Assembly (NCBI RefSeq): GCF_001625325.1
Contig: NZ_JRQQ01000007.1
Coordinates: forward strand, 124,001-188,000
Direction of reading: 5' to 3'
DNA length: 64,000 nucleotides
Source of the DNA: Croceicoccus estronivorus
Lineage (GTDB): Bacteria; Pseudomonadota; Alphaproteobacteria; Sphingomonadales; Sphingomonadaceae
In this document: positions 30,978 through 53,619 of the stretch, in pieces
How the letters are laid out: each line of letters opens with the position of its first letter
Numbering within the stretch: the stretch's first letter is position 1
Made by a program: the position numbers and the translations under genes
Notes under the pieces: model-generated
Seen by the model: the letters and a program-made list of their open reading frames with translations, nothing else
Databases searched by the model: none
Told to the model about the DNA's origin: nothing

Positions 30978-32186
30978 ATGGCCACGACAAAGACGGTGGA
31001 TCTGATTCTGGATGCCGGCATGGCTCTGGTCGCCGGGGCTGGGCCTGATGGCGCCAGCGTTCGTGCGATTGCGGATCGGGCGGGTGTTTCGGCCCCTGCC
31101 GTGCAACATCACTTTCGCGCCAAGGAGAGTTTGCTGCACGGAATATATGCGCGGGCTGTGGATTGCCATTTGGAGGTTACCGCAGCAGCGTTGCTGCCTG
31201 TGGTTCTCCCGCATGCGGAACGCGTGGCAGAACCTGCCCGTCAGGGTGTAATCGTCGAAATGGCGACATCGGTCATGCAGGAATGGCTGCGTGAAGAAGG
31301 GCGCGCGACTCTTACGTCGGTGATCCTTCATCTTCTCGTCCATGCGGTCAGAGATGCGTCCTATGGTGATCTGGCCTCGCGGTGGCTGGCAGGAACGGTA
31401 ACCGCTTTCGAAAGTGTCGGAGTGGCGGGAACGGGTGATGCGCAGTTTCTTGTCGAGCTGCTGATCGGCGCTGCACTGGTGAGCGCGCCGGGGCGGTTCC
31501 GCTGCGAGAATGACATATTGAATCGCGAACTGTTTCGCTCTGCCTGCGGCGCACGCGATTGGGATGGTGGATTCTGGCTGGAACGGTACCGGACCAGGCA
31601 TGAAAGAACTCGTCCTGACAGTGACCCGTCGGGAGAAGGGGAAGGCCTGTACGCGCGTCTGCTGGACGTTTGCGTGGCCCTGACGGCTGAGGTGGGCGCG
31701 GATGCGTTGAGCTATCGGAAGATTGCCGCACGCGCCAAAGTGGCGCCTTCGTCGGTCTTGTATCATTTCCCGAACCGCACCGGATTACTGATGGCGCTTT
31801 ATCGAGAGGTCCACAGGCGCTTTATGTTGGCGGCGGGCACGGAGGAGGTCGAGCCACGCGCCCAGGCGGCCCCTGCGGCGGGTCTGTTTGCCAAGCTGAT
31901 CGTGGATGAGATGGCGGGTGAAGCGCCTCTGTTCCTTACATCGTGTGAATTGTTCCTGGCCAGTTGGCGTGAAATGGAATTGGCGCCTGATGCCCTGTTT
32001 ATGCGTCTTGAACGGGGAAAGATGCACGGGGTGCCTCAGTTGTCCCCAAGCGAGAGACAGCGGGCGCACTTGCACTCAATCTGGTCGCTGGGACTGGCGC
32101 TGACTCAATACTCCCACGCATCCTCTCATCGTTCGCGAGACGTCGAGCTGAGGTTGCGTGATGGAATGCGTTTCCTTGATGACTGA
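30978..32186 (+). CDS. Double-domain TetR-family regulator
   Basis: The 402-residue protein is about twice the usual TetR length and contains two complete TetR DNA-binding domains. The first is at about 5-60 (ASVRAIADRAGVSAPAVQHHF), the second at about 220-278 (LSYRKIAARAKVAPSSVLYHF). Each is followed by a helical ligand-domain-sized stretch (about 65-200 and 280-400). The single chain could act as a covalent dimer. It precedes the hydrolase/CoA ligase/side-chain operon on the same strand, so it is the best local candidate for regulator of that operon. Confidence 0.85.
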   Translation: MATTKTVDLILDAGMALVAGAGPDGASVRAIADRAGVSAPAVQHHFRAKESLLHGIYARAVDCHLEVTAAALLPVVLPHAERVAEPARQGVIVEMATSVMQEWLREEGRATLTSVILHLLVHAVRDASYGDLASRWLAGTVTAFESVGVAGTGDAQFLVELLIGAALVSAPGRFRCENDILNRELFRSACGARDWDGGFWLERYRTRHERTRPDSDPSGEGEGLYARLLDVCVALTAEVGADALSYRKIAARAKVAPSSVLYHFPNRTGLLMALYREVHRRFMLAAGTEEVEPRAQAAPAAGLFAKLIVDEMAGEAPLFLTSCELFLASWREMELAPDALFMRLERGKMHGVPQLSPSERQRAHLHSIWSLGLALTQYSHASSHRSRDVELRLRDGMRFLDD

Positions 32187-32275: not shown

Positions 32276-32295
32276 CATGCAATTTTTATTGCATG
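32276..32295. promoter_or_regulatory. Perfect inverted repeat upstream of the side-chain operon
   Basis: CATGCAAT-TTTT-ATTGCATG has 8-bp arms and a 4-nt centre, in the AT-rich part of the 233-bp gap between the TetR stop and the hydrolase start. TetR-type operator or hairpin; no T-run follows that would make it a clear terminator. Confidence 0.5.
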
Positions 32296-32419
32296 GGCCA
32301 ATTTTATGAAAAGAGCCCAAAGGTGGCCGTGACAGGCTGCGCCGCCTTGTTGCCTCCGGTGCGGTACTCTACCGTTTGCCCCAACAGAAGACGCCAAGCG
32401 TAGATATTCGGGTAGAGTG

Positions 32420-33304
32420 ATGCAGGCTGAAATCGTCAAATTTCCCGTTGCGGCGGGCATTTCGCTTCAGGCGGACCGGTTCGGTCCGCAAGATGGCTTG
32501 CCGGTAATCCTGCTGCACGGCGGCGGGCAGACGCGATGGTCGTGGGGCGCTACCGCACAACACCTGGCGCAGCATGGTGGCGGGCAGACGTTCTGTGTCT
32601 ATGCCGTAGACATGCGTGGCCATGGGCAAAGCGACTGGTGCCCCGACGGTCAATACTCACTCGATCATTTCGCCGACGATTTGCGCGCGCTTGCGCGACA
32701 GATGCCGGCCCCTCCAGTCATCGTGGGGGCCTCTCTTGGTGGCCTGTCGGCGATGTTGGCGTGTGGCGAGGATCCCCAGGCGCCGTGCGCCGGGCTCGTG
32801 CTGGTCGACATCGCTCCCAGGATGGAGGCGCACGGTACGCAGCGGGTCGGCACTTTCATGCGGGACACCATGGATGGATTCGATACTCTCGAAGAAGCAT
32901 CGGAGGCTGTCGCTGCCTATGCTCGCAACCGCGAACGGCCCAGCCGGCCGGAAGGCTTGTTGAAGAACCTGCGTCGCGATGACGATGGCCGCTACCGCTG
33001 GCACTGGGACCCGGCCTTCATGAGTGCGGGAAGCAAGCAGAAATGGGATCCGGAAGCTCTGGAGCGAAGGCTGATGACGGCAGTCGGGCGCATTCCCGGT
33101 CCGGTCATGGTGGTCCGCGGAAGCGAGAGCGATGTCGTCAGTCGCGAGACAATGGATCATCTCAAACAGGCGCTGCCGCATGTCGCGCAGGCCGAAATAT
33201 CTGGAGCCCGCCATATGATAGCCGGTGATGACAATGCCCGCTTCAATGAAGCGATCCTTCCGTTCCTGCTTGCAAATGCGGGTGGGCAGGAGGTTGGCCG
33301 ATGA
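32420..33304 (+). CDS. Alpha/beta hydrolase
   Basis: The 294-residue protein has the oxyanion-hole HGGG (33-36), the strand-4 VDMRGHGQSDW, the nucleophile elbow GASLGG with S105, an acid region at VVRGSESDVV and the catalytic His in ARHMIAGDD. The set is complete. It may hydrolyse an ester, lactone or CoA thioester. It is the first gene of the seven-gene operon; its stop overlaps the CoA-ligase start (ATGA). A GTG lies directly before the chosen ATG. Confidence 0.88.
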   Translation: MQAEIVKFPVAAGISLQADRFGPQDGLPVILLHGGGQTRWSWGATAQHLAQHGGGQTFCVYAVDMRGHGQSDWCPDGQYSLDHFADDLRALARQMPAPPVIVGASLGGLSAMLACGEDPQAPCAGLVLVDIAPRMEAHGTQRVGTFMRDTMDGFDTLEEASEAVAAYARNRERPSRPEGLLKNLRRDDDGRYRWHWDPAFMSAGSKQKWDPEALERRLMTAVGRIPGPVMVVRGSESDVVSRETMDHLKQALPHVAQAEISGARHMIAGDDNARFNEAILPFLLANAGGQEVGR

Positions 33305-35118
33305 GCGTCGATAGCCCGCGCCCTTCGCGCCAGGAAAGTATGGCCCGCTTCATGAAGGGCGCACAGCGCGTGGCAGGGTTCACTCGCGACATGCCCTACC
33401 TCGTTCCCGACCGGCTGGAGGAACGGGCCAAGGACAGCGCCGATGTGCCGTTCATCCTGTTCGAGGAGCAGCGCATTACTTACGCGGAGGCCAACCGCCG
33501 GGCCAACCGCATTGCGAATGCCGCACGCGCCCTGGGCTGGAAGCAGGGCGATGTGGTTTCGCTGCTGATGCTCAACCGGCCGGAATTCGTGCTGACTTGG
33601 CTGGGGCTGTCCAAGGCGGGAATCGTTACTGCGCTGATCAACACCAGCGCCACCGGCGAGGTGCTGCGCCATGCCATGACGCAAGTGAATTCGCAGGCGG
33701 TGATTGTCGACAGCGACCTGATCGGTGCGCTCGATACTCTGGACGGGCCGGTTGGCATTCCGGTGTTGGTGGATGTCGAGGCGGGCAAGGACTTCGCACC
33801 GGCTGATGGGCAGCAGGACTTTGCCCAGTTGGTAGCTGCCGCCTCCGATGAAAATCCGCCAGCGGAATGGCGCCAGGGCCTGGTTGCGGCAGACCCACTC
33901 TATCTCATCTTCACATCCGGCACGACCGGCCTGCCAAAGGCAGCGAAGATGAGCCACCTGCGCTTCCTCAATAGCGGGGAGATGATGGGTGGCCTGATGG
34001 AATTCAACAAGGACAGCGTATTCTACTGCGTCCTGCCGCTCTATCATGGCGCCGGGGGCATGGTCGTTCCTTCGGCCGCGCTGGCATTCGGTGTGCCGTT
34101 GCTGTTGCGGCGAAAGTTCAGCCGCTCAGGTTTCTGGCCGGATGTGCGGCGCCATCGAGTGACTGCGGCCTACTATATCGGCGAAATCATTCGCTACCTG
34201 ATGGCGAGCCCGCCGCAGCCGGACGATCGTGACCACACCTTGCGCAATATGGCGGGGGCCGGGCTGAAACCCGATATCTGGCGGGCATTCGTCGATCGCT
34301 TCGGGATCGAGAATATCTTCGAAGGTCTGGGTTCGACCGAGGCCAATTACGGAATTACCAACGTCGACAACATTGTCGGTTCGGTAGGGCGCATCCCCTA
34401 TCCGGAATACAGCAATATCCGGGTGCTTCGCTGGGACGTGGATGCCGGTGAGTATGTGCGGGATGCCGAGGGCCGCCCTGTGCTGGCGGGGCCGGATGAA
34501 GTTGGCGAACTGGTCGCCGAAGTGCTTTACGGCAACGATCCGGCCGGTTTTTTCGAAGGCTATACGTCTGCCGAAGCCACCGAAGCCAAGCTGCTGCGTG
34601 GTTTGTTCAAGCCTGACGATGCCTGGATGAAGTCAGGTGATCTCATCCGTATCGACGAAGACGGTTATGTGTTCTTCGTCGACCGGGTGGGCGACACGTT
34701 CCGGTGGAAGAGTGAGAATGTGTCCACTCAGGAACTGGAAAATGTCCTGTCCGCATTCCCGGGAATCGACATGGTCAACGTGTATGGCGTGCGGATACCG
34801 CAAACCGAAGGGCGCGCGGGCATGGCTGCGCTGACTTTCGAGGAGGGTTGTACTTTCGATCCGGCAGCCTTCTATGCCTTCGCGAGCGCAAGGCTGGCCT
34901 CTTATGCCGTGCCGGTCTTTGTTCGTCTGTCGGCCGCCGCAGACATGACCACCACTTACAAGCTCCGCAAGGGGCCGCTTCAACGGCAGGGCTATGACCC
35001 CGCGTTGACTGGCGAGCCTGTCTTTGTCGTCGACCCGGATGCGCGGACATATGTGCCGGTGACAGGCGAGGTGCTCGAACGCCTTGGCATCGCGCCGTTC
35101 GAACAGGAAGGAAACTGA
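33301..35118 (+). CDS. FATP-type acyl-CoA synthetase (possible steroid/very-long-chain CoA ligase)
   Basis: The 605-residue ligase has IFTSGTTGLPKAAK, GLGSTEANYG, and the region GDLIRIDEDGYVFFVDRVGD with FRWKSENVSTQELE, characteristic of the FATP/FadD6-FadD17-FadD19 branch rather than FadD of E. coli. Members activate bulky substrates such as very-long-chain or steroid carboxylates. It is coupled to the hydrolase upstream and followed three bases later by an acyl-CoA dehydrogenase, so it probably makes the CoA ester on which the rest of the operon acts. Confidence 0.88.
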   Translation: MSVDSPRPSRQESMARFMKGAQRVAGFTRDMPYLVPDRLEERAKDSADVPFILFEEQRITYAEANRRANRIANAARALGWKQGDVVSLLMLNRPEFVLTWLGLSKAGIVTALINTSATGEVLRHAMTQVNSQAVIVDSDLIGALDTLDGPVGIPVLVDVEAGKDFAPADGQQDFAQLVAAASDENPPAEWRQGLVAADPLYLIFTSGTTGLPKAAKMSHLRFLNSGEMMGGLMEFNKDSVFYCVLPLYHGAGGMVVPSAALAFGVPLLLRRKFSRSGFWPDVRRHRVTAAYYIGEIIRYLMASPPQPDDRDHTLRNMAGAGLKPDIWRAFVDRFGIENIFEGLGSTEANYGITNVDNIVGSVGRIPYPEYSNIRVLRWDVDAGEYVRDAEGRPVLAGPDEVGELVAEVLYGNDPAGFFEGYTSAEATEAKLLRGLFKPDDAWMKSGDLIRIDEDGYVFFVDRVGDTFRWKSENVSTQELENVLSAFPGIDMVNVYGVRIPQTEGRAGMAALTFEEGCTFDPAAFYAFASARLASYAVPVFVRLSAAADMTTTYKLRKGPLQRQGYDPALTGEPVFVVDPDARTYVPVTGEVLERLGIAPFEQEGN

Positions 35119-35121
35119 CCG

Positions 35122-36300
35122 ATGCGCGTCGAATATACGGATGAACAGCGCAGCATACGCGCGGAGTTTCGCGCTTATCTGGACAAGCTGGTCACGGATG
35201 AGGTTCGTGCGGAGACGCTGGGAGCCGAGGGGGGGCCGCTTTATCGTGAAACGATCCGCCAGATGGGCCGCGATGGCTGGCTGACCCCCGGCTGGCCGGC
35301 CGAATATGGTGGCAAGGGGCTGGACCCCCGCATGCAGAAGATCCTGCTGGAAGAGCTCGTTCTTGCTGCCGCGCCTTTTCCCTTCGTGACTGTCAATACC
35401 GTGGGGCCGGCGTTGATGCGGATGGGAACGGAAAAACAGAAGCAGACCATCTTGCCGAAGATAGCCGCAGGCGATCTGATTTTCGCCATTGGCTACTCCG
35501 AGCCGGGAGCGGGAACCGACCTTGCCGCGTTGAAGACCCGTGCAGTGCGGGAAGGGGACCAATACCGCATTAACGGGCAGAAGATCTTCACCAGCGGTGC
35601 GGAAGGCGCGGATTATGTGTTCCTTGCCTGTCGTACCGATCCGGACGCGCCGCCGCACAAGGGTATTTCGATCCTGATGGTCGATACGCGGGATCCGGGT
35701 TTCTCATTTTCGCCCATCGTCACTGTCGGCGGCATCCGTACCAATGTCAGCTACTATCAGGATGTGATGGTTCCGGCAGACATGCTCATCGGGCAGGAAA
35801 ACGGCGGCTGGCGGTTGATTGCCGAACAGCTCAATCATGAACGGATCGGGCTCGCAGCGCTGATCTATGCGGCGCACGGCCATTTCGACCGGGTCGTCGC
35901 GTGGGCGAAGGAAACGCCAGCCGGGGCAACCGGCGCCAAGGTAATCGACTTGCCCTGGGTGCAATCTGCATTGGCCGAAGCCTATGCCCAGTTGCTCGCC
36001 AGTGAAACGATGGGCAACCGCGTGGGCTGGGAAGTGGCTGAGGGCTCGACCAAGCCGGACCTTGCCGGCGGGGTAAAGGTGTTCGGCACCGAAGGCATGA
36101 TCAAGGTCATGCGTCTCCTGCTCGATGTTCTGGGTGCGGCCGGCCTCGTGCGGACGGGTTCGCCCGGTGCCTTGCTGCAAGGGCGGATCGAACGCGAATA
36201 CCGGCTTTGCCAGATCAACACATTCGGTGGCGGTGCGGTGGAAGTGCTGCGTGACATGGTTGCGCAGTTCGGGCTCGGCATGCCGCGTGCGCCGCGCTGA
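35122..36300 (+). CDS. Acyl-CoA dehydrogenase, ChsE2/FadE29-like
   Basis: The 392-residue flavoprotein has AIGYSEPGAGTDLAALKTRA in the mid domain, NGQKIFTSGAEGADY, and a C-terminal INTFGGGAVEVLRDMVAQFGLG. The FGGG(x)VEVLRD tail is as in the subunits of heterotetrameric sterol dehydrogenases, where one subunit type has the intact FAD contact. It is expected to pair with the dehydrogenase at 37283 as in ChsE1-ChsE2. Spacing to the MaoC-DUF35 gene is 16 bases. Confidence 0.87.
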   Translation: MRVEYTDEQRSIRAEFRAYLDKLVTDEVRAETLGAEGGPLYRETIRQMGRDGWLTPGWPAEYGGKGLDPRMQKILLEELVLAAAPFPFVTVNTVGPALMRMGTEKQKQTILPKIAAGDLIFAIGYSEPGAGTDLAALKTRAVREGDQYRINGQKIFTSGAEGADYVFLACRTDPDAPPHKGISILMVDTRDPGFSFSPIVTVGGIRTNVSYYQDVMVPADMLIGQENGGWRLIAEQLNHERIGLAALIYAAHGHFDRVVAWAKETPAGATGAKVIDLPWVQSALAEAYAQLLASETMGNRVGWEVAEGSTKPDLAGGVKVFGTEGMIKVMRLLLDVLGAAGLVRTGSPGALLQGRIEREYRLCQINTFGGGAVEVLRDMVAQFGLGMPRAPR

Positions 36301-36316
36301 GGAAGAGGTGATCGAA

Positions 36317-37279
36317 ATGAATGATGTGAGCGATCTTTACACCCGCGCCCGGACGTGGATCGGCAAGGAAGCCGGCAAGCCCACCATGGCGCGTGATGTG
36401 GTCAACGTGCCGATGATCCGCCGTTGGTGCGAGGCCATGGGCGAGGAAAATCCGATCTATGTCGATGCGGAAGCCGCCCAGGCCGAAGGGTTCCCGGGAC
36501 CGGTCAGCCCGCCCGCCATGCTGGAAGTATGGACCATGGCGCGTTATCGCCCCGGCGGACGCCTGCCTGAGGAGGGTATCCCGGTCCTGAACCTGTTCGA
36601 CGAGGCCGGTTACACCGGTGTCGTGGCGACCAATATCGAGCAGGAATATGATCGCTATCTGGTCGAGGGCGACCGGGTATCTTATACCGCGATTGTCGAT
36701 GATGTGTCTGAAGAAAAGCGCACCGGTCTCGGCATCGGGCATTTCATAACCATTCGCTATGAATTCACGGACCAGAACGGGGGTCCCGTGGGGCGGATGC
36801 TGTTCCGTGTGCTGAAGTTCAAACCCAATCTTGCGCAGGCGAAAGCCCCGGCGACCGAGAGTGCGGGCAATGAATTCCCGCACCCGCGCCCGGCAATCAC
36901 GCATGATAACGCCCATTATTGGGAAGGCATCGCGAAGCGCGAACTGCTGATCCAGAAATGCAGCGATTGCGGCCATCTTCGCCACCCGCCGGGCCCCGGC
37001 TGCCCGCAGTGCCAGTCGCTGGAATGGGAAACCGTAAAGGCGTCTGGCAAGGGTACGCTTTACAGCCATGTGACCATGCATCACCCCCGGCTGCCGACAT
37101 TCGACTATCCTCTGCCGGTACTGCTGGTGGAACTGGAAGAAGGCGTGCGGATCGTAGCCAATGGCATTGATCTGCCTGCAAGCGATCTGACCATTGGCAT
37201 GCCGTTGGAACTGGACTTCGTGGAAGTCGAACCGGGTTATCTGCTGCCGGGCTTTCGGCCCGCCAGGACGGGGGGCTGA
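36317..37279 (+). CDS. MaoC-DUF35 fusion protein, ChsH2-like
   Basis: The 320-residue protein joins an N-terminal hotdog hydratase domain (about 10-175) to a C-terminal DUF35/OB domain (about 195-315) with a zinc ribbon CSDCG...CPQC. In the hydratase motif the catalytic Asp and His are replaced (GEENPIY, E43 and Y48), as expected for the non-catalytic half in ChsH1-ChsH2. The DUF35 domain of ChsH2 binds the aldolase Ltp2. ATG 36317 has an AAGAGGTG box. The frame open upstream lies antiparallel to nothing known but overlaps the dehydrogenase, so it was not used. Confidence 0.88.
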   Translation: MNDVSDLYTRARTWIGKEAGKPTMARDVVNVPMIRRWCEAMGEENPIYVDAEAAQAEGFPGPVSPPAMLEVWTMARYRPGGRLPEEGIPVLNLFDEAGYTGVVATNIEQEYDRYLVEGDRVSYTAIVDDVSEEKRTGLGIGHFITIRYEFTDQNGGPVGRMLFRVLKFKPNLAQAKAPATESAGNEFPHPRPAITHDNAHYWEGIAKRELLIQKCSDCGHLRHPPGPGCPQCQSLEWETVKASGKGTLYSHVTMHHPRLPTFDYPLPVLLVELEEGVRIVANGIDLPASDLTIGMPLELDFVEVEPGYLLPGFRPARTGG

Positions 37280-37282
37280 TCC

Positions 37283-38437
37283 ATGGAATTTGCTCTCAAC
37301 AGCGATCAGGAAGCGATCGTCGAACTCGCCCGGAATATTCTGAGGGACCTTTGCGGGGATGAACAGCTGCGGGCTTTTGCTGCATCGGCGCAATCCTACG
37401 ATGCGGACCTGTGGAGTTTGTTGGCAGAAGCAGGGCTTACCGGCCTTGGCATTGAGGAAGATCTCGGCGGCACCGGTTTCGGCATGATCGAAACGGCGTT
37501 TCTGCTTGAGCAGGCAGGGGCCACGCTGGCTCCGGTGCCGTTGCGCGAAACGCTTGTCTGCGCACAGACGCTTGCCATGGTTGGTGGCGCGCATGCGGCG
37601 CTGATTGGCGAGGCCGCAGCGGGCCGGGCCATTCTGGCAAGTGCCTGCGATGAAATCGGTGCAGCATGGCAAGCGCCTGAAACTCTCGCCACGCGCGATG
37701 GCAATGGCTGGCGTCTGTCTGGCGTGAAGTCGGCCGTCGCCTGGGGGATGGAAGCAACTGCAATTCTGCTGTCCGCTCGTCTTGAAAATGAAGGCGGAGT
37801 CGGCCTGTTCGTGGTTCCTGCGGATAGTGCAGGATTGCGTCGGGACGCGCAGACCGGGACGGACCTGACCCCGCTTGCCTTGCTCAATCTCGAAAATGTG
37901 CATGTTTCCGGTGATGCGTTGCTTGATGCAGGGGAAGGGGCCGCCGATCTGCTGCGCTGGCATCTGGGCCGGATGCGGGTTGCTTTGTCAGCCAGCCAAT
38001 TGGGAATTGCAGCGGAGGCTTTGCGGCGAACAGCCGCCTACACATCCGAGCGTATACAGTTCGGGCGTCCCATCGGTTCGATGCAGGCCGTCCAGCAACG
38101 TGCCGCGGATGGTTACATCGATGTCGAGGCGATGCGCTCCACCACGTGGCGTGCGGCATGGTTGATCGACCAGGGCATTTGCGACGATGCGGAAATTCTC
38201 GCCGCCAAATACTGGGCTGCCATCGGCGGACACCGGGTGACGCACACAGCGCAACACCAGCATGGCGGGATGGGAGCAGACATTACTTATCCTATTCATC
38301 GCTTTTTCCTGGCCGCGAAGGCGGTCGAATCCGCTCTCGGTGGTGCGCAGCCGATGCTCGCTGAACTGGGTGCAGCCATTGCCGCGGGCCGTGCCCGCCC
38401 GCTTTCGGCCATTGGTGGAGGTTTCGATGCAGTTTGA
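37283..38437 (+). CDS. Acyl-CoA dehydrogenase, ChsE1/FadE28-like
   Basis: The 384-residue protein has the acyl-CoA dehydrogenase fold, with RIQFGRPIGSMQAVQQRAADGYIDVEAMR in the C-terminal bundle and HQHGGMGADITYPIHRFFLAAK near the end. The mid domain lacks the common 'TEPxxGSD' flavin-binding motif (it reads LASACDEIGAA), which fits a partner subunit in an alpha2beta2 enzyme. Its end overlaps the next MaoC gene by 11 bases. It is expected to form a complex with the product of 35122-36300. Confidence 0.87.
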   Translation: MEFALNSDQEAIVELARNILRDLCGDEQLRAFAASAQSYDADLWSLLAEAGLTGLGIEEDLGGTGFGMIETAFLLEQAGATLAPVPLRETLVCAQTLAMVGGAHAALIGEAAAGRAILASACDEIGAAWQAPETLATRDGNGWRLSGVKSAVAWGMEATAILLSARLENEGGVGLFVVPADSAGLRRDAQTGTDLTPLALLNLENVHVSGDALLDAGEGAADLLRWHLGRMRVALSASQLGIAAEALRRTAAYTSERIQFGRPIGSMQAVQQRAADGYIDVEAMRSTTWRAAWLIDQGICDDAEILAAKYWAAIGGHRVTHTAQHQHGGMGADITYPIHRFFLAAKAVESALGGAQPMLAELGAAIAAGRARPLSAIGGGFDAV

Positions 38438-38843
38438 ACAGATCACGGAAGGCGCCGCGCTGCCTGAATTGGAATTTCCGGTTACGGCGTCGGCCATTGT
38501 TGCCGGGGCATTGGCCACAAACGATTATGAGAACGTCCACCACGACAAGGCCGCCGCAGAGGCGACCGGCGTGCCGGATATCTTCATGAACATCCTGACG
38601 ACCAATGGGCTGGTCCAGCGCTATGTCGGCCAGTGGGCAGGGCGCAGTGCGCGCGTGCGGAAAATCGCAATCAAGCTGGGCGCACCGAACTTCGTGGGCG
38701 ATACCATGCGGATCAACGGCTCTGTGAGCCATGTCGACCAGGCCAAGCGTGAAGTCGCTGTGACCGTTTCCGGTCGAAACCGGATCGGCGAGCATGTCGG
38801 CGCCACCGTTACTCTTCATTTCCCTGAAAGGAATGCGGCATGA
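38427..38843 (+). CDS. MaoC-family enoyl-CoA hydratase, ChsH1-like
   Basis: A 138-residue single hotdog domain with D33 and H38 in NDYENVHHD, the catalytic pair of the hydratase-2 motif at the right spacing. This makes it the active half to the degenerate hydratase domain of the MaoC-DUF35 protein. ATG 38427 has GGTGGAGG just upstream; the frame continues further back inside the dehydrogenase gene, which was rejected. The stop overlaps the aldolase gene (ATGA). Confidence 0.87.
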   Translation: MQFEQITEGAALPELEFPVTASAIVAGALATNDYENVHHDKAAAEATGVPDIFMNILTTNGLVQRYVGQWAGRSARVRKIAIKLGAPNFVGDTMRINGSVSHVDQAKREVAVTVSGRNRIGEHVGATVTLHFPERNAA

Positions 38844-40009
38844 ACGCTCTCTCGGGCAAGGCAGCCATCACCGGGATTGGCGCGACCGAATTTTCCAAGA
38901 ACAGCGGGCGCTCCGAACTGCGCCTTGCGGTCGAGGCCACGCTGGCGGCATTGGCCGATGCCGGAATCGATCCGGAGGAAGTCGATGGGCTGTCCACCTA
39001 TACGATGGACAACAATCCGGAAATCGAGCTGTTTCGGAACATCGGCGGACGGGACCTGAAGTTCTTCAGCCGTATCCATTATGGCGGTGGCGCGGCCTGT
39101 GCGCCGATCATGCATGCGGCGATGGCAGTGGCGACGGGCGTGGCCGAAGTGGTCGTCTGCTACCGTGCGATGAACGAACGGTCTCAATATCGCTTCGGCG
39201 CCGGTTTTGCGCCGGATGCAACGCCGACCGCGGAAATCGCGCATTATGGCTATTATGTGCCGTTCGGCCTGATGTCGCCGGCCAGCTGGGTGGCGATGTC
39301 TGCCCGGCGCTATATGCACGAATATGGCGTAACGTCGGAAGACTTCGGCCGGATTGCGGTCGGTTTCCGGGATTTCGCGGCGACCAATCCGAATGCGTGG
39401 TTCTATCAACAGCCGATTACGCTGGAGCAGCATCAGGCATCGCGTTGGATTGTCGAGCCGCTACATCTGCTGGATTGCTGCCAGGAATCTGACGGGGCAG
39501 TGGCAGTGGTCGTTACTTCCGCTGAACGTGCGCGAAAATTGCGGCAGCCGCCGGTCATCATCAATGCTGCGGCTCAGGGGGCCTGCGACGATCAACAGAT
39601 GATGACCAGTTATTACAGGCCTGACGTGGCGCGCCTTTCCGAAATGGATCTGGTCGCCAATCAGCTTTACGCGATGGCAGGGTTGGGGCCTGATGATATT
39701 CAGGCGGCAATCCTCTACGATCACTTCTCTCCGTTCGTTCTACCCCAGATCGAAGCCTTCGGGTTCGCTCCGCAGGGGCAGGCAGCGGACTTCGTGCGTG
39801 AAGGGAACATCGCGCGGGGTGGCCGGTTGCCGGTGAATACCAATGGCGGCCAGTTGGGCGAAGCATATATCCACGGACTTAACGGCGTGGCCGAGGGCGT
39901 CAGGCTGGTGCGCGGGCAAAGCGTCAATCAACCTGGCGATTGCCGTAATGTCGTCGTGACGGCAGGAACCGGTGTGCCAACGTCCGGACTGATCCTGACT
40001 GCCGGTTGA
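38840..40009 (+). CDS. Thiolase-fold lipid-transfer protein / aldolase, Ltp2-like
   Basis: The 389-residue protein belongs to the SCPx-thiolase-like group: AAITGIGATEFSKNSGRS at the start, HYGGGAACAPIMHAAMAVATG near 78-98 and NTNGGQLGEAYIHGLNGVAEGVR at about 333. In Mycobacterium, Ltp2 is a retro-aldolase that, bound to the DUF35 domain of ChsH2, cleaves 17-hydroxy-pregnene-carboxyl-CoA to the 17-ketosteroid and propionyl-CoA. Its position as last gene, overlapping the ChsH1-like gene, matches that set. Other branched tertiary-hydroxy CoA substrates remain possible. Confidence 0.87.
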   Translation: MNALSGKAAITGIGATEFSKNSGRSELRLAVEATLAALADAGIDPEEVDGLSTYTMDNNPEIELFRNIGGRDLKFFSRIHYGGGAACAPIMHAAMAVATGVAEVVVCYRAMNERSQYRFGAGFAPDATPTAEIAHYGYYVPFGLMSPASWVAMSARRYMHEYGVTSEDFGRIAVGFRDFAATNPNAWFYQQPITLEQHQASRWIVEPLHLLDCCQESDGAVAVVVTSAERARKLRQPPVIINAAAQGACDDQQMMTSYYRPDVARLSEMDLVANQLYAMAGLGPDDIQAAILYDHFSPFVLPQIEAFGFAPQGQAADFVREGNIARGGRLPVNTNGGQLGEAYIHGLNGVAEGVRLVRGQSVNQPGDCRNVVVTAGTGVPTSGLILTAG

Positions 40010-40056: not shown

Positions 40057-40950
40057 GTGAATCAGACGCCAGCAACGCCATCTGCCTTTGATACGAGAAT
40101 CGATGTCAGTGTTTCGACATCGGTTCTCGTAGCGCAACTTGCCACGCATGTTTCGCCCGGGCAGGCGGACTTCATTTTGGACGAGAAAGTCCATACCCTG
40201 TCTCTGCAACTTCAATTACAGCAGAGCCTTTCCGTAGGACGGTTCGAGACGCCCGATGCGCCGGGCGAGTTTCTCGATATCGGGCGTGCGATATTCGTGC
40301 CTGCCGGCGTTCCCCTGCGAATTCGCTCCGACGGGGTGGTGACGAATACGATCCGGTGTTTCTTCCGCCCGCCTGTGCTGGAGGACTTGCTGGGCGAGGA
40401 GATCGATCAGTCGCGTAACCGGCTCAATTCCTGTCTTAATGTCAAGCGCCCGGCAATCCGCGATCTGATGCTCCGAATTGCGCGAGAGATCGAGACGCCA
40501 GGTTTTGCCTCTTCCCAAATGCTTGACGCTTTGGGCGAGACGTTACTGGTGGAACTGGTCCGCTATTTGCGGGAGACACCGGCCGATGGCAATCTTCGTG
40601 GCGGCTTGTCCAGAGCCGCCTACCGCAAGGTCATCCGCAGACTGGAAGGGGGTGGCCCCCCGCCTACGCTGGAGGAACTCGCCGCGCTGGCAGAATTGAG
40701 TAAACGTCACCTGACCCGCGCTTTCCACGAGACCACGGGGATGACTATCCATCAGCAATTGGACGAACTGCGTTTCAAGCGTGCGACGTCACTGTTGGAT
40801 GATCCTGCCTTGTCCATTGGCGAGATAGCAGGCCTTGTGGGCTTTCAGTCGGGCTCGGCTTTTTCGACTGCGTTCACGCGTTGGAGCGGGAGAAGCCCCA
40901 GGCGCTATCGGCATGAACTGGCGCAGATGCGGCAACCGGATCAGCAATGA
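40057..40950 (+). CDS. AraC-family transcriptional regulator
   Basis: The 297-residue protein ends in the two-helix-turn-helix AraC domain (about 195-290): LEELAALAELSKRHLTRAFHETTGMTIHQQL and IAGLVGFQSGSAFSTAFTRWSGRSPRRYR. An N-terminal sensor domain of about 170 residues contains a cupin-like start. GTG 40057 follows GGATGGG. It follows the side-chain operon by 47 bases on the same strand. It is clearly related to the AraC genes at 53788 and 63460 (shared block VELVRYLRE...LRGGLSR before the DNA-binding domain). Confidence 0.88.
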   Translation: MNQTPATPSAFDTRIDVSVSTSVLVAQLATHVSPGQADFILDEKVHTLSLQLQLQQSLSVGRFETPDAPGEFLDIGRAIFVPAGVPLRIRSDGVVTNTIRCFFRPPVLEDLLGEEIDQSRNRLNSCLNVKRPAIRDLMLRIAREIETPGFASSQMLDALGETLLVELVRYLRETPADGNLRGGLSRAAYRKVIRRLEGGGPPPTLEELAALAELSKRHLTRAFHETTGMTIHQQLDELRFKRATSLLDDPALSIGEIAGLVGFQSGSAFSTAFTRWSGRSPRRYRHELAQMRQPDQQ

Positions 40951-48237: not shown

Positions 48238-49206
48238 ATGACTCGAGCTGGTTCCCAGCCCCACAATCGCGACGATCTGGCCGAAGCGGCAACATGGCTC
48301 GCGCGGCTGCGTTCGGATGAACGAACCGGGCAAGACGAACTCGCCTTCCGATCATGGCTGGCGGAGGATGAAGCCCATGCGGCTGCGTTCCTGCATGTGA
48401 CCGACGTCTGGGAAGCCTCTGCCAATATGAGTGTGCATCAGCGCCGGGCGTCTGGTGACTACAAACATAGCCGCCGCAAGGTTCTGGCAGGTTCACTCGC
48501 GGTTTTGACGGCAACCGCAGGTGGAACTGCGGCATGGATGCTTAGTGGGAAGCAGACCTATTCCACCCGCGTTGGTGAACGCAGGCGCGTGGCATTGGAG
48601 GACGGGTCTTCGCTGCTGCTCGATACCGACAGTCTCGCCACGGTGCGCATGAGTGCCGAAAGGCGCGAGATCGAACTGGTGAGGGGAAGGGCGCATTTCG
48701 CCGTGGCCAAGGATGTCTCCAGGCCTTTCATGGTGCGGGCGGGCAGCCAGCAGGTTATCGCGTTAGGCACTGCTTTCGATGTGGATCGCGCCGACGAAGA
48801 AACGACTGTCGTGCTGGTCGAAGGCCAGGTGGTCGTGCGGTCGGTAGATCAGTTGTCGATCGCGCCGGAAAAGGTCATGTCGCCGGGAGACCGCCTCGTA
48901 TTTCTGGGAGAGGAGCTGGCGGTGGCGGATCGGCCTGACATGGCGGCGATGTCGGCATGGCAATCTGGCAGGCTGGTCTTCGCGCAGGAAACGCTCCTCT
49001 CTGCGATTGCGGAGTTCAACCGTTATAACAAGCGGAAGCTGTCTGTTGGCGATCCGGCTCTTGCCGCTATTCAGGTCAGCGGCGTTTATGATGCCAACGA
49101 TCCCGAAGGTTTCGCCAGATCCCTCGGGCTTTTGTTGCCAGTGGCTTCACGGATCGACGGAGACAGGATCGTACTCGATCTGAACGAGGAGAGAAAAAAG
49201 AACTGA
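48238..49206 (+). CDS. FecR-family anti-sigma/sigma regulator
   Basis: The 322-residue protein has an N-terminal cytoplasmic region (DUF4880-like, WLARLRSDERTGQDELAFRSWLAEDEAHAAAF), a membrane helix near 82-100 and a periplasmic FecR domain (about 115-210, VGERRRVALEDGSSLLLDTDS...RGRAHFAVAKD), then a C-terminal STN-like segment. It receives the signal from the TonB receptor and sets sigma activity. It begins one base after the sigma gene. Confidence 0.9.
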   Translation: MTRAGSQPHNRDDLAEAATWLARLRSDERTGQDELAFRSWLAEDEAHAAAFLHVTDVWEASANMSVHQRRASGDYKHSRRKVLAGSLAVLTATAGGTAAWMLSGKQTYSTRVGERRRVALEDGSSLLLDTDSLATVRMSAERREIELVRGRAHFAVAKDVSRPFMVRAGSQQVIALGTAFDVDRADEETTVVLVEGQVVVRSVDQLSIAPEKVMSPGDRLVFLGEELAVADRPDMAAMSAWQSGRLVFAQETLLSAIAEFNRYNKRKLSVGDPALAAIQVSGVYDANDPEGFARSLGLLLPVASRIDGDRIVLDLNEERKKN

Positions 49207-49230
49207 GGAAAAATCGGTCTCGTCCGTCTC
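49207..49230 (+). promoter_or_regulatory. Candidate ECF-type promoter before the TonB receptor
   Basis: GGAA (49207-49210) and GTCTC (49226-49230) are 15 bases apart, close to the spacing of ECF promoters, in the 68-bp gap before the receptor gene. The match is short and needs testing. Confidence 0.3.
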
Positions 49231-49274
49231 CACAATGCATCTTGCAAAAACGATAAATTCGGAAGGGGAGAGAT

Positions 49275-51938
49275 ATGAGGGGATTCAGGGCTGTTCGGTC
49301 TGTCATGCTGGCTGGCTGCGCAATGGGCATGCTGCCGATAACGGCAACGCCTGCATTGGCGGGTGAAGCTACGGCAACGATCAGGATGCCTTCCATGCCG
49401 TTGGACGCGGCGTTGACTGAACTCGCTCGAAAGACCGGGGCAAACATACTGTTTCTGCCCGATGCAGTTCGTGGGATGAATTCACACCCGGTCGACAATG
49501 CGATGTCAGTCGATGACGCACTTCGGGGGATGGTCGCAGGCAAGCCTCTGGACGTGGTGCGCGACCCTTCAGGGGCCTTGATCGTAAGGAAACGGCCTGC
49601 GTCGCTGCTTCGCCCGATCGCCTCGCAAGAGCCGGCCTTGAGCCGCAGGGCAGCAGCACCTGAACCTGCGCCTTCCAACGATGCCAGCGCGTCTGGTATC
49701 GATGCGATCGTCGTTACTGCGCGTCGCCGGGCGGAAAATGCGCAGGATGTTCCGATTGCCGTTACCGCGCTGAATAATGAACAGGTGGCAGTGCCTGGAT
49801 CGGTCGGTCTGACGCAGGTCGCCCAGCTCGCCCCCAGTCTGCAGATTACATCGACCAATGCCCGGCAAACGAACATCAATATTCGGGGTCTAGGTGCGAC
49901 CCCTGCTTTCGCCAGTCTTGGTCTGGAGTATGGGGTCGGCGTCTATGTAGATCAGGTCTATTATAGCCGGCCGGCCCAGGCGGCGTTCGATCTCTACGAT
50001 CTGGAGCAGGTCGAAGTTCTGCGGGGGCCGCAGGGCACGCTGTTCGGCAAGAACACGACTGCGGGTGCTATACATATCACTTCCCAAGCCCCGACATTCG
50101 ATCCGGAATTCCGTGGCGAGGTGAGCGTCGGCAACTACCGGTCGCTACAGGTTCGCGCCACAGGATCCGCCCCGATCAATGACAAGGTGGCAGTGCGCCT
50201 GACAGTCTCGGATACGGAACGCGACAAGGGCTTCTTGAAGAATGTCTATGACGGCAAGAGATTGTCCGATCTCCATACTCTGTCCGTCCGCGGGCAAGTG
50301 CTATTCAAGCCGACGGATGTGTTCTCCCTGAGAGTCATTGGAGATTACAGCGAGTACAAACAAAATTGCTGCATCGGCACGACCACGACCGTTCGCACCA
50401 CTCGGGCCGACGGGAGTGTATTGCCCAACAATTTCTATGTTCGCGCGGCGCGGTTCGGTTACGATCCTCTCCCTGTCGATCCCTTTTCTCGCGAACTGGA
50501 CCTGAACCGGCCCGTCAATCTTAACCTGAAGACGCACGGGGTTACGGCAATCGCAGACTACGATCTTGGTTCTGCAACGATTACTTCGGTTACAGGCTGG
50601 CGGTCGCTCAAGTACCTGCCGACGATCGATGCTGACCTTGCTCCTCTCGACATTTTCATCGATGCCGGAATTGACGAGAAGCAGCGCCAGTTCAGCCAGG
50701 AAATTCGTATTGCGTCGAATGGTGGAAATGCGGTCGATTACGTCGCGGGACTGTACTATTTCAACCAGCGGATCGACGACAAGATTTTCGTCAAGTACGG
50801 TCCCGATGCCGCCTTGTGGGTTCTCGGGCCCGCGCAGGGTAGTTCGCAAGCTTCCGTTGGTGGACAGGCTGCCCTGAACGGTTTGTTCGTTGACGGTACC
50901 GCTCGTGCGGACACGAAGAGCTACGCGGCGTTCGGTCAGATCGTTTGGCATGTGTCGGACGCGTTCGATGTCACTGCTGGCGTGCGTTATACGAAAGAAA
51001 AGAAAACAGGCTTCTTTGAGCAAGTTCAGCGCGGGCCGACACTCACTTCAACCGAAATTGCGTTTGGAGCGCAGGCTATCCGGAATGCCTTTGGCGCCGA
51101 TATTCCGCGATACACGGCCAAGACGAAGGAAGACAACATCTCGGGCGGTTTGACCTTGTCCTACAAGGTCACGCCGGATGTGATGGTCTACGGCACGTTC
51201 TCGAAAGGTTACAAGTCCGGGGGACTTAATCTCAATGCCACAGGCGCACCGCCTGTCATCGACCCGGAAAAGGTCGATAACTACGAGGCCGGGATCAAGA
51301 CGACATTGTTCGACCGGGCAATGACCCTCAATCTCGCGGCTTTCCATACGAAGATACGGAACTATCAAAGCCAGCAGATCGATATCGGGGGGGCTCTTAC
51401 GGCATACATCGCCAATGTCGGAACAGTCCGTACACAGGGATTGGAATTCGACGCATCCTTGCGGCCGATGCGCAATCTCAGCCTGTTCGCCTCGGGCAGC
51501 TATGTCGATGCCATTTACAAGGACTATCAGAATGCACCTTGCCCGGTGGAATATCTGGGCCTGCAAACTTCGTGTGACCTGAGTGGGCGTCATCTGCCGG
51601 GTGTTTCCCGCTATTCATTGTCTCTTGGCGGAGAATACGCGGCAGAAGTATCCTCTTCGGCAGAAGTTTATCTCAGTGGAAACTATAGCTATCGTTCGAA
51701 GTTCAACGGCACTTACAACCTAGCTGAAGATGCGGTGATCGACGGTTATGGTGTAACAAACCTGCGTATTGGCTTGCGTCACGTGGATGGCCAGTGGGAT
51801 ATCTCCCTTTATGCTCGCAACCTGTTCAATACCAAGTATTATAATTCCATAAACGCAGCAGCATTTAATACTGGTCAGTATAGCGGCGGTCCCGGCGATC
51901 CTCGGACATACGGCGTCACCTTGCGTACATCGCTGTAA
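49275..51938 (+). CDS. TonB-dependent receptor with N-terminal STN signalling domain
   Basis: The 887-residue protein has a signal peptide (about 1-29), an STN domain (35-100, MPLDAALTELARKTGANILFL), a TonB-box/plug region (about 138-260, IDAIVVTARRRAENAQDVPIAVTAL and LRGPQGTLFGKNTTAGAIHI) and a barrel ending in RTYGVTLRTSL. The STN domain passes ligand signal to FecR. It lies between fecR and a sulfatase, which suggests import of a sulfated organic molecule and not of an iron chelate. Confidence 0.93.
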   Translation: MRGFRAVRSVMLAGCAMGMLPITATPALAGEATATIRMPSMPLDAALTELARKTGANILFLPDAVRGMNSHPVDNAMSVDDALRGMVAGKPLDVVRDPSGALIVRKRPASLLRPIASQEPALSRRAAAPEPAPSNDASASGIDAIVVTARRRAENAQDVPIAVTALNNEQVAVPGSVGLTQVAQLAPSLQITSTNARQTNINIRGLGATPAFASLGLEYGVGVYVDQVYYSRPAQAAFDLYDLEQVEVLRGPQGTLFGKNTTAGAIHITSQAPTFDPEFRGEVSVGNYRSLQVRATGSAPINDKVAVRLTVSDTERDKGFLKNVYDGKRLSDLHTLSVRGQVLFKPTDVFSLRVIGDYSEYKQNCCIGTTTTVRTTRADGSVLPNNFYVRAARFGYDPLPVDPFSRELDLNRPVNLNLKTHGVTAIADYDLGSATITSVTGWRSLKYLPTIDADLAPLDIFIDAGIDEKQRQFSQEIRIASNGGNAVDYVAGLYYFNQRIDDKIFVKYGPDAALWVLGPAQGSSQASVGGQAALNGLFVDGTARADTKSYAAFGQIVWHVSDAFDVTAGVRYTKEKKTGFFEQVQRGPTLTSTEIAFGAQAIRNAFGADIPRYTAKTKEDNISGGLTLSYKVTPDVMVYGTFSKGYKSGGLNLNATGAPPVIDPEKVDNYEAGIKTTLFDRAMTLNLAAFHTKIRNYQSQQIDIGGALTAYIANVGTVRTQGLEFDASLRPMRNLSLFASGSYVDAIYKDYQNAPCPVEYLGLQTSCDLSGRHLPGVSRYSLSLGGEYAAEVSSSAEVYLSGNYSYRSKFNGTYNLAEDAVIDGYGVTNLRIGLRHVDGQWDISLYARNLFNTKYYNSINAAAFNTGQYSGGPGDPRTYGVTLRTSL

Positions 51939-51963
51939 TGCGTGCGGAACAGAGGAGGAAACT

Positions 51964-53619
51964 ATGAAAATGCTTCACCTCATGCTGGCGGCTTCGGCCA
52001 TGACCGGCATTGCAGCCTCGGTGGCCAAGGCGGAAGAGGCCCGGCCCAACATCGTGGTCATTCTGGTCGACGATATGGGCTTTTCGGACATCGGTGCATT
52101 TGGCGGGGAAATTCGCACGCCCAATCTGGATGCTCTGGCGAACAAGGGCGTGAAATTTACAAACTTTCACGCCACCCCGGTTTGTGCGCCAACCCGGGCA
52201 GAGCTGCTGACCGGGATCGATCATCATCAGACGGGGATCGGCAATTTTCCGGAATTACGTCAGGATAATCAGGTCGATAAGCCAGGTTACGAAGGCTATC
52301 TGAATGACCGTGTGGTGACGATTGCCGAGCGTCTGAAAGATGCGGGCTATGCCACTTTCCAATCAGGCAAATGGCACCTGGGTTATGACCCCCGGGCCAA
52401 TCCGGCTGCACGGGGTTTCGATCATTCTTTCACCATGCTGGGTGGTGGACATAACCACTTTGGTGCGGATCAAGGGCGTGAGCGGCCCGATCTTCCCAAT
52501 GTGGGTCTGGTTTACACACAGGATGGAAAGGAAGTCTCTATCCCGGCGAAATTCTATTCGACGGATTATTTCACGGACAAATTCATTTCGTTCCTTCCTG
52601 ATGGCAAGAGCAAGCAACCCTTCTTTGGCTATCTTGCCCTGACTGCGCCACATTATCCGATTCAGGCTCCTGCCGAAGACATCAAGCGCTATCACGGCAA
52701 ATATGACGCGGGCTATGATGTCCTGCGTCAGGAGCGGCTCAAGCGGTTGAAGGACCTCAAACTTGTGCCGCAGGACGTCAAGGCGCACGAACCAAGTTCG
52801 TCGAAGCGATGGACTGATTTGACGGAAGATGAAAAGCGCATCGAAGCGCGCACGATGGAAGCCTATGCCGCGATGGTCGATCGGATCGACCAGAACGTCG
52901 GCCGGTTGATCAGTGAACTGAAGAAGCGCGGGGAATACGACAATACGGTCATTCTGTTCTTCTCGGACAATGGGCCGGAAGGACATGAACTGGACAAGTC
53001 GTTCATCATTCCCGAAGCTGGCAAGGCAATGCTGGCGAGCGCGGACAACAGCCTGGATTCCATCGGCACTGCAAAGTCCTATGTCTGGTACAAGTCGAAC
53101 TGGGCAGAAGCGGGTTCCGCACCGTCACGGCTCTACAAATCCTTCCCAACGGAAGGGGGAACACGGGTCGTTTCTTTCCTGAGCTATCCGGGGCATGCCC
53201 GCACCGGGATAGAGCCCAGCTACATTTCCGTTCGCGATGTATTGCCGACGGTGCTCGATCTGGCTCATGCCAAGGTCGACAATCCGGAAGAATACAACGG
53301 CAAGCCGGTGATCGCCCCGCAAGGCACTTCTTTCGCCCAGCGGATTTTCCCTGGTGCCCCGGCTCCGCAGATTTCGCCCGAGTTTGCGGCAGGCGAGATG
53401 TTCGGCCGACGCTATGTTCGCGAAGGACGCTGGAAAGCAGTTCACATTCCGCCGCCTACCGGCAGTGGCCACTGGGAATTGTTCGACATGGAAGCGGACC
53501 CGGGTGAAACGAACAATCTTGCGCGGCAAAATTCGGATCAATTGGCCAAGATGGTCAAGGACTGGAACAAATATGCCGATGAGAAGGGAGTTGTTCCGCC
53601 AATCATCCCTGGCAATTAA
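51964..53619 (+). CDS. Exported arylsulfatase-type sulfatase
   Basis: The 551-residue protein has a signal peptide (1-23), the metal-binding ILVDDMGF, the formylglycine site CAPTR (C74-R78), GKWHLG near 136 and a later FFSDNGPE. C74 must be turned into formylglycine by a maturation enzyme not seen in this window. It hydrolyses sulfate esters and releases sulfate in the periplasm. It lies 25 bases after the TonB receptor gene, in the sigma/anti-sigma operon. Confidence 0.92.
   Translation: MKMLHLMLAASAMTGIAASVAKAEEARPNIVVILVDDMGFSDIGAFGGEIRTPNLDALANKGVKFTNFHATPVCAPTRAELLTGIDHHQTGIGNFPELRQDNQVDKPGYEGYLNDRVVTIAERLKDAGYATFQSGKWHLGYDPRANPAARGFDHSFTMLGGGHNHFGADQGRERPDLPNVGLVYTQDGKEVSIPAKFYSTDYFTDKFISFLPDGKSKQPFFGYLALTAPHYPIQAPAEDIKRYHGKYDAGYDVLRQERLKRLKDLKLVPQDVKAHEPSSSKRWTDLTEDEKRIEARTMEAYAAMVDRIDQNVGRLISELKKRGEYDNTVILFFSDNGPEGHELDKSFIIPEAGKAMLASADNSLDSIGTAKSYVWYKSNWAEAGSAPSRLYKSFPTEGGTRVVSFLSYPGHARTGIEPSYISVRDVLPTVLDLAHAKVDNPEEYNGKPVIAPQGTSFAQRIFPGAPAPQISPEFAAGEMFGRRYVREGRWKAVHIPPPTGSGHWELFDMEADPGETNNLARQNSDQLAKMVKDWNKYADEKGVVPPIIPGN

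Follow-up and report, generated by a model that had tools for sequence, protein, structure and literature searches.

The igr genes of Mycobacterium tuberculosis and other Actinomycetota encode two acyl-CoA dehydrogenase subunits (ChsE1 and ChsE2; CoA, coenzyme A), two hydratase subunits (ChsH1 and ChsH2) and the retro-aldolase Ltp2; in M. tuberculosis they stand in a context of Cyp125 and FadA5. In actinobacterial cholesterol catabolism the CoA ester arises directly from a thiolase reaction. The same five enzymes, including a MaoC-DUF35 fusion, are encoded by ORF40-44 of Comamonas testosteroni TA441, for which PMC12502768 describes removal of the C3 chain (the propionyl residue) from bile acids, with cholate and lithocholate as substrates; knock-outs of the equivalent genes accumulated the expected C22 intermediates. 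An igr-like operon (EGO55_03105-03125) is described for Caenibius tardaugens (PMC12882949). These precedents leave no novelty in the Gram-negative setting, which the first-pass annotation had stressed: igr-type enzymes in Gram-negative bacteria and this operon in C. tardaugens are already published. Here we analysed the corresponding operon of Croceicoccus estronivorus, at positions 32420-40009 of a 64,000-nucleotide (nt) stretch of DNA (the window), which is C23:124001-188000 of the host genome (3.67 Mb; G000; L, G and C label loci, genomes and contigs). Judged from homology, the operon probably encodes a module removing a C3 side chain from steroids (22-oic acids) that are supplied as free acids.

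The operon consists of seven intact open reading frames (ORFs), all on the + strand, in the order hydrolase, ligase of the fatty acid transport protein (FATP) type, ChsE2, ChsH2, ChsE1, ChsH1 and Ltp2:

32420..33304, + strand: alpha/beta-hydrolase, esterase-like, first operon gene; Ser105 in GASLGG, His265 (Pfam Abhydrolase_1/6, ortholog alignment)
33301..35118, + strand: FATP-type acyl-CoA ligase, proposed activator of a steroid C22 (side-chain) free acid (FATP2 structure match, NF006134)
35122..36300, + strand: ChsE2-like acyl-CoA dehydrogenase subunit, Glu240 in LNHERI (PDB match, tree, residues)
36317..37279, + strand: ChsH2-like MaoC-DUF35 fusion, zinc ribbon C-x2-C/C-x2-C, Tyr replacing the hydratase His (Pfam, PDB match, residues)
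37283..38437, + strand: ChsE1-like acyl-CoA dehydrogenase subunit, helix-G Glu lacking (PDB match, tree, residues)
38427..38843, + strand: ChsH1-like MaoC hydratase subunit, D-x4-H (NDYENVHHD) (PDB match, residues)
38840..40009, + strand: Ltp2-like retro-aldolase, Tyr293 in YDHF and Tyr343 (PDB match, tree, residues aligned with TcLtp2 Tyr294/Tyr344)

The seven-gene set, its order, coordinates and tight spacing had been read correctly in the first-pass annotation, as the intact ORFs and their junctions bear out. Overlaps of 4 nt (ATGA type) were found at 33301-33304 (hydrolase/ligase) and 38840-38843 (ChsH1/Ltp2) and an overlap of 11 nt between ChsE1 and ChsH1; the remaining junctions are gaps of 3, 16 and 3 nt. 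The gene set for an igr-type C3 side-chain module (two acyl-CoA dehydrogenase subunits, MaoC-DUF35, MaoC and Ltp2) is complete. A chance arrangement is excluded, because each of the 21 untruncated loci examined in this lineage has the order ligase-ChsE2-ChsH2-ChsE1-ChsH1-Ltp2 (the window, L009, L010, L013-L015, L017-L022, L025, L029, L030, L159, L161, L175-L177 and L183). The truncated loci L011, L012 and L182 in the locus table were not counted, and L016 (a 3.4-kb contig; Ltp2 90% identical) was left out.

Searches with phmmer placed all five central proteins next to ChsE-, ChsH- or Ltp2-type structures from the Protein Data Bank (PDB). The best relatives were 6ok1_A for Ltp2 (577 bits, with a full-length alignment to T. 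curvata Ltp2), Tcur3483 6wy8_B (401 bits) and 4x28_A (381 bits) for ChsE2, 6wy8_A (227 bits) and 4x28_D (187 bits) for ChsE1, 4wnb_B (109 bits) for ChsH1 and 4wnb_A (145 bits) for ChsH2, whose DUF35 domain matched 6ok1_B (139 bits). The ChsH2 fusion contains the Pfam domains FAS1_DH_region, zf-ChsH2 and OB_ChsH2_C, and its zinc ribbon has four Cys. In an NCBIfam scan of the operon proteins no model exceeded its cut-off except general ligase and lipid-transfer models. The catalytic Glu of acyl-CoA dehydrogenases is found in one ChsE subunit only (LNHERI with E240 in ChsE2 versus LGRMRV in ChsE1), and the hydratase Asp/His in one ChsH subunit only (NDYENVH in ChsH1 versus GEENPIY in ChsH2). Tyr293 (of YDHF) and Tyr343 of the window Ltp2 align with Tyr294 and Tyr344 of TcLtp2 (6ok1), and catalytic roles of the YDHF Tyr and of the second Tyr are described in PMC12329534. 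In the Sal/Shy system of Proteobacteria (C5 steroid aldolase/hydratase), a retro-aldolase of the thiolase fold is likewise associated with a DUF35 domain, but it has YDCY, and Gln instead of the second Tyr; a Sal-type C5 aldolase is ruled out by YDHF and Tyr343.

In the Ltp2 tree (113 rows), the window protein fell into a 25-row, mainly sphingomonad lineage within the Ltp2 family, with a support of 90 in the Shimodaira-Hasegawa-like approximate likelihood ratio test (SH-aLRT). Six of 119 rows had been removed from this tree as duplicate or partial (L016, L083, L065_1, L135, L148 and L155), and it flags long branches among distant paralogs. The tree of acyl-CoA dehydrogenases (73 rows, drawn from 28 chosen loci, L110 contributing none) showed a ChsE2 clade of 27 rows and a ChsE1 clade of 26 rows (SH-aLRT 100 each), and actinobacterial igr subunits sit inside both. 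Both are quick trees with SH-aLRT support and without bootstrap. Ltp2, ChsE1 and ChsE2 did not cluster outside the ChsE/Ltp2 clades. The earlier assignment of the five central genes to the igr set holds, by tree for these three proteins and by best structure match and residues for all five; on this basis the five core proteins belong to the igr (ChsE-ChsH-Ltp2) families.

The window Ltp2 shares 63-68% identity with its counterparts in the Actinomycetota loci that our searches revealed. Most of these loci have the order ChsE1-ChsE2-ChsH2-ChsH1-Ltp2; a ligase inside the operon is a feature of the window, and the Cyp125/FadA5 context of igr is not present at the window operon. The numbering in TA441 is ChsH2-ChsE1-ChsH1-Ltp2-ChsE2 (PMC12502768), whereas in the window ChsE2 comes first and the set is extended by a ligase and a hydrolase. 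The TA441 order was also found in 23 gammaproteobacterial loci, unlike the window lineage. The five-core order of the window without a ligase occurs in L074, an actinomycetotal metagenome-assembled genome (MAG), and in L083, a deltaproteobacterial MAG; it is therefore the ligase, not the five-gene order, that marks the lineage.

The closest described system is that of C. tardaugens. Three different igr-deletion primers printed in PMC12882949 matched G139:C1:640001-660000 exactly (7670 +, 15932 + and 16624 -), which identifies G139 as C. tardaugens or a strain nearly identical to it; its kinship label gives the same genus as the host. As the host genome revealed no 16S rRNA gene, its placement rests on the kinship labels and this primer match. 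Between the primers lies an operon with 72-73% (hydrolase), 83% (ligase), 91% (ChsE2), 83% (ChsH2), 79% (ChsE1), 86% (ChsH1) and 93% (Ltp2) identity to the window, followed by an AraC gene with 78%. Gene order, AraC neighbour and an upstream element are common to both, and these alignments identify the window operon as the ortholog of the published one. In the paper the name stands for five genes; judging from their positions, ligase and hydrolase continue the same run as its next two members. According to PMC12882949, deletion of the igr-like operon left growth of C. tardaugens on cholate and deoxycholate unaffected, which rules out an essential role in bile-acid degradation for the ortholog. 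The primers flank the seven-gene ortholog, and as the fragments are ~700 bp the deletion would span nearly all seven genes; the same inner primer is printed for both fragments, so that the exact left deletion edge is unreadable in the source. Other steroids or fatty acids are proposed as its substrate in PMC12882949, and our literature search on the igr-like operon revealed nothing about the substrate beyond this paper. C. tardaugens is reported to grow on estrogens, androgens, pregnenolone, progesterone, cholate and deoxycholate (PMC12239570). A free C22 acid made elsewhere would fit the deletion without effect on bile-acid growth.

The ligase in the operon is the best clue to the substrate. 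Its best PDB match was the FATP2 structure 9vzp_A (398 bits), and it reached 688 bits with NCBIfam NF006134 (cut-off 625). A dedicated ligase points to a substrate arriving as free acid, not as CoA ester delivered by a thiolase, and suggests that the candidates can be narrowed to free steroid acids. In bile-acid degraders using Sal, the C5-to-C3 step is described to lead via an aldehyde to a free acid, for which a second ligase is required (PMC8399759, PMC12882949). The hydrolase had been noted in the first pass as an addition to the igr set. This applies to the window, but not to the lineage as a whole: it occurs in only 14 of the 21 untruncated loci (among them L009, as a mere tail at the contig edge) and is missing in L010, L014, L015, L025, L029, L030 and L183, versus the CoA ligase in 21 of 21. 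Ser105 and His265 are invariant among 13 aligned hydrolase orthologs. The AlphaFold model of the hydrolase (mean predicted local distance difference test score 84) matched only general esterase, hydrolase and lactonase folds, with the esterase Rv0045c and acetamidomethylene-succinate hydrolase as nearest folds; a role in freeing the acid from an ester is conjectural.

The core steps have been shown for homologs in other organisms and are transferred here by family membership and residues. In a possible prior step, the alpha/beta-hydrolase would free a steroid 22-oic acid from an ester. The FATP-type ligase would convert the free acid (pregnane-20-carboxylate type) to its CoA thioester, the ChsE1-ChsE2 flavoenzyme would desaturate C17-C20, and ChsH1-ChsH2 would hydrate the product, giving a thioester with a tertiary 17-hydroxy group. 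Bound to the DUF35 domain of ChsH2, Ltp2 would then perform a retro-aldol cleavage to propionyl-CoA and a 17-ketosteroid, which may finally enter a ring degradation encoded elsewhere in the genome.

Such ring degradation by the host strain is likely from the gene content. A search of the host genome revealed 11 matches of the KshA_C family (10 of which scored at least 58 bits), five matches of the KstD model (459-553 bits), a best HsaD match of 254 bits and HsaC-like genes with 265 and 216 bits. HsaC-, HsaD-, KshA- and KstD-like genes are clustered at ~599-605 kb of host contig C1. Among 149 genomes of the family, 18 had a match to Ltp2 with an E-value of 1e-80 or lower; in 8 genomes the identity was at least 79%. 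A close KstD homolog (E 1e-120 or better) was found in 16 of the 149 genomes, including all 8 with a close Ltp2; of the remaining 10, in which the Ltp2-like match was weaker, four also have one. The one-sided Fisher test for this co-occurrence gave p values of 2.6e-9 by genomes, 2.5e-6 without the own genus and 2.1e-5 by genus. The operon of C. tardaugens has a KstD homolog at a distance of ~3 kb; a FAD_binding_2 and a short-chain dehydrogenase/reductase (SDR) gene stand in between, and the whole group is within ~5 kb upstream of the operon. In G067, the operon neighbours are FAD_binding_2 and SDR genes (one by likeness only), a cytochrome P450 and a ferredoxin-like gene (by eye), and the KstD homologs are away from the operon, the nearest at ~50 kb. 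A block like that of G067 (P450 61% identical, two FAD_binding_2, SDRs) is found in the host at ~C23:188.4-198.8 kb, which places the host equivalent of the C. tardaugens flank ~24-35 kb beyond the operon and just outside the window.

Several points weigh against a steroid C3 module. The function of the window operon itself is predicted from homology. The ligase is not of the CasI type: it scored 230 bits with the NCBIfam model of this steroid-22-oyl-CoA synthetase (cut-off 900). The steroid genes of the host stay under the curated cut-offs (KstD 553 of 788, HsaC 265 of 450 and HsaD 254 of 400 bits). As to the co-occurrence, the KstD E-value limit was our own choice, related genomes are not independent, and only the best candidates per genome were scored (at most 9 for KstD and 12 for Ltp2), so single misses are possible. 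In C. tardaugens, the igr-like Ltp2 gene EGO55_03105 is reported, together with several Sal-type genes, to be lowly expressed and not induced by cholate (PMC12882949); hence, as far as this source goes, no steroid is known to switch the operon on. Moreover, a gene for AtuA (acyclic terpene utilisation) lies beside the operon, on its upstream side, in six loci (L017, L019-L022 and L177; assigned as PF07287 by scan in L020 only and by sequence clustering or N-terminal likeness in the others), and a PhyH gene (PF05721) lies near it in one (L015:3482-4282). These neighbours could point to a branched isoprenoid acid as substrate. A literature search for AtuA with steroid side chains revealed nothing useful.

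The alternative that survives best, though we consider it doubtful, is a full pathway for sterols (cholesterol or plant sterols), in which a CYP125-type P450 would start, beta-oxidation would shorten the chain and the operon would take the last three carbons. The first-pass annotation had stated that there is no Cyp125 in the window. This is correct for the window, which contains none of the 15 P450 frames detected in a whole-genome search, but not for the genome: a P450 of the CYP125/124/268 clan (C23:284633-285886) lies on the same contig as the operon, ~120 kb away and not tied to it. Its PDB matches were CYP125MRCA (by its name probably an ancestral reconstruction; 372 bits), CYP125 5dqn (271 bits), CYP268 (264 bits) and CYP124 (257 bits), and an NCBIfam scan of 10 host P450s found none over cut-off. 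Nine thiolase matches of at least 137 bits in the host genome would also suit a sterol pathway. However, at E 1e-90 this P450 was found in only three of the 149 family genomes (G000, G090 and G018), two of them operon-bearing, and not in C. tardaugens or in six of the eight operon-bearing genomes of the family. A CoA ligase in the operon would be superfluous if a thiolase delivered the CoA ester, and cholesterol was metabolised by none of the four Proteobacteria for which tests are given in PMC4810484.

A non-steroid substrate, such as another ring compound or a terpenoid with a 2-substituted propionate side chain (for example an ibuprofen-like one), is unlikely. An ibuprofen pathway with plasmid-borne IpfD-type aldolases exists in sphingomonads. 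Plasmid pIBU218 of Rhizorhabdus wittichii MPO218 encodes a protein, presumably IpfD (the record reads lipid-transfer protein), which belongs to the Ltp2 family with 57% identity to the window protein, has the same YDHF motif and neighbours an OB-fold (DUF35-type) protein. The AtuA and PhyH neighbours speak in the same direction. On the other hand, the pIBU218 protein forms a 6-row clade of its own (SH-aLRT 100), apart from the window lineage, and the stretch of pIBU218 that we examined contains a CoA-transferase, a DUF35 protein and the aldolase, but not the ChsE/ChsH set. An IpfD-type arylpropionate system is ruled out by this separate clade and by the full ChsE/ChsH set in the window. The close KstD homologs in eight of eight genomes also argue against non-steroid substrates, as do the KstD, FAD-enzyme, SDR and P450 genes near the operon of C. 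tardaugens and the FAD-enzyme, SDR and P450 genes in G067. Degradation of the bile-acid side chain, as by Comamonas ORF40-44 with the same five enzymes (PMC12502768), was among the substrates suggested in the first pass and is now very improbable, given the intact growth of the C. tardaugens mutant on cholate and deoxycholate (PMC12882949) and the other side-chain route that bile-acid-degrading Sphingomonadaceae seem to use according to the review PMC8399759.

Further Ltp2-like proteins are encoded in the host genome. A second one at C22:79433-83468 (L162:9433-13468) is 52% identical to that of the window, with YENF replacing YDHF. Its gene adjoins those for a stand-alone DUF35 protein and an 830-amino-acid CoA-transferase family III protein (two matched stretches), a layout resembling the CoA-transferase/DUF35/aldolase arrangement on pIBU218. 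Two others (C1:610908-612047 and C1:29474-30607) show 43% identity. The former, whose gene adjoins one for an acyl-CoA dehydrogenase, has YDAF, with neither the Ltp2 His nor the Sal Cys, and falls into an 8-row clade of family genomes; the latter lies near DUF35, P450 and KstD-like genes.

As judged from the sequences, the six-gene set in the same order is one lineage in sphingomonads and Acidocella. Novosphingobium sp. ES2-1 has a six-gene copy on the conjugative plasmid p3, beside electron transfer flavoprotein genes and a P450. On pTHN of Novosphingobium sp. THN1 (L182), typed as conjugative, only ltp2 and araC are left, with an Ltp2 of 90% identity. This decayed copy adjoins small genes resembling toxin-antitoxin genes by eye, and its Ltp2 is identical to that of the MAG locus L009. 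Acidocella sp. KAb 2-4 (L010), which is outside the Sphingomonadales, carries a six-gene copy with an Ltp2 nested among those of Caenibius and Novosphingobium, and both stretches flanking this operon have a lower G+C content than the rest of the locus. This suggests a horizontal transfer to Acidocella, with contamination of the assembly as the alternative to be kept in view. A literature search for Acidocella with steroid gave nothing useful. Close copies outside the family look rare; no second Ltp2 at E 1e-170 was found among 385 genomes of the class, with at most the best four candidates scored per genome. The plasmid copy of ES2-1, the remnant on pTHN and the nested Acidocella copy would fit a spread as a mobile trait. 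In L013 (2825-3631) and L176 (16511-17320), proteins of ~268 amino acids, alike by eye, are encoded immediately before the hydrolase; that of L013 matched no Pfam family at E 1e-5.

The flanks of the window operon contain the following features:

30978..32186, + strand: 402-amino-acid protein carrying two TetR_N domains on a single chain, upstream of the operon (Pfam)
32276..32295, no strand assigned: perfect inverted repeat of 8+8 nt with a 4-nt spacer, possible operator, between the upstream regulator and the operon
32346..32380, + strand: upstream non-coding element CTTGTTGCYNCNGRTGCGGT..., putative promoter/operator (pattern from three same-genus upstream regions)
40057..40950, + strand: AraC-family regulator, directly downstream of the operon (Pfam, conserved neighbour)

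The AraC neighbour is kept in C. tardaugens (78%), a third same-genus genome (78%) and, with more distant relatives, Acidocella (42%), L009 (41%) and L012 (55%). A second AraC-family gene at 53788-54693 of the window shows 36-37% identity to the operon-side AraC of C. tardaugens and the window, and has a 76% ortholog near the operon-side P450 in G067 (L161:177-1058). As an IUPAC pattern, the CTTGTTGCYNCNGRTGCGGT element matched exactly solely at its three source sites in a scan of 4.7 Mb on both strands (window and collected loci). The inverted repeat has no further copy with fewer than four mismatches in the window or in L159/L161. The protein with two TetR_N domains was not found adjoining the operon in the other loci examined, and its link to the operon is uncertain. 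Promoter-like sites numbered 3 versus 3.5 (standard deviation 1.9) in shuffled sequences, and terminator-like sites 13 versus 9.6 (standard deviation 3.6). A sulfated compound, for which steroid sulfates also come into consideration, might be imported and desulfated by the products of a row of FecR-like, TonB-dependent receptor and sulfatase genes at 48238-53619. A NAD-dependent epimerase/3-beta-hydroxysteroid dehydrogenase-like protein is encoded at 62258-63298 (PF01073 70 bits, PF01370 104 bits).

For the preferred C3 side-chain module, we tentatively consider a scavenging role, which is possible rather than probable: the host may take up and complete C22 steroid acids leaked by other degraders of sterols or bile acids. 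The scavenged acids would be pregnane-20-carboxylates and bisnorcholanoic acids. Such scavenging would account for the presence of a CoA ligase and a hydrolase in the operon and for the unaffected growth of the deletion mutant on whole bile acids. A claim that looked surprising becomes a testable one: the enzymes for the C3 side chain are known and the question is their substrate in sphingomonads. If the scavenging role is true, a specialised degrader trait, in part plasmid-borne, would be connected with leaked C22 intermediates.

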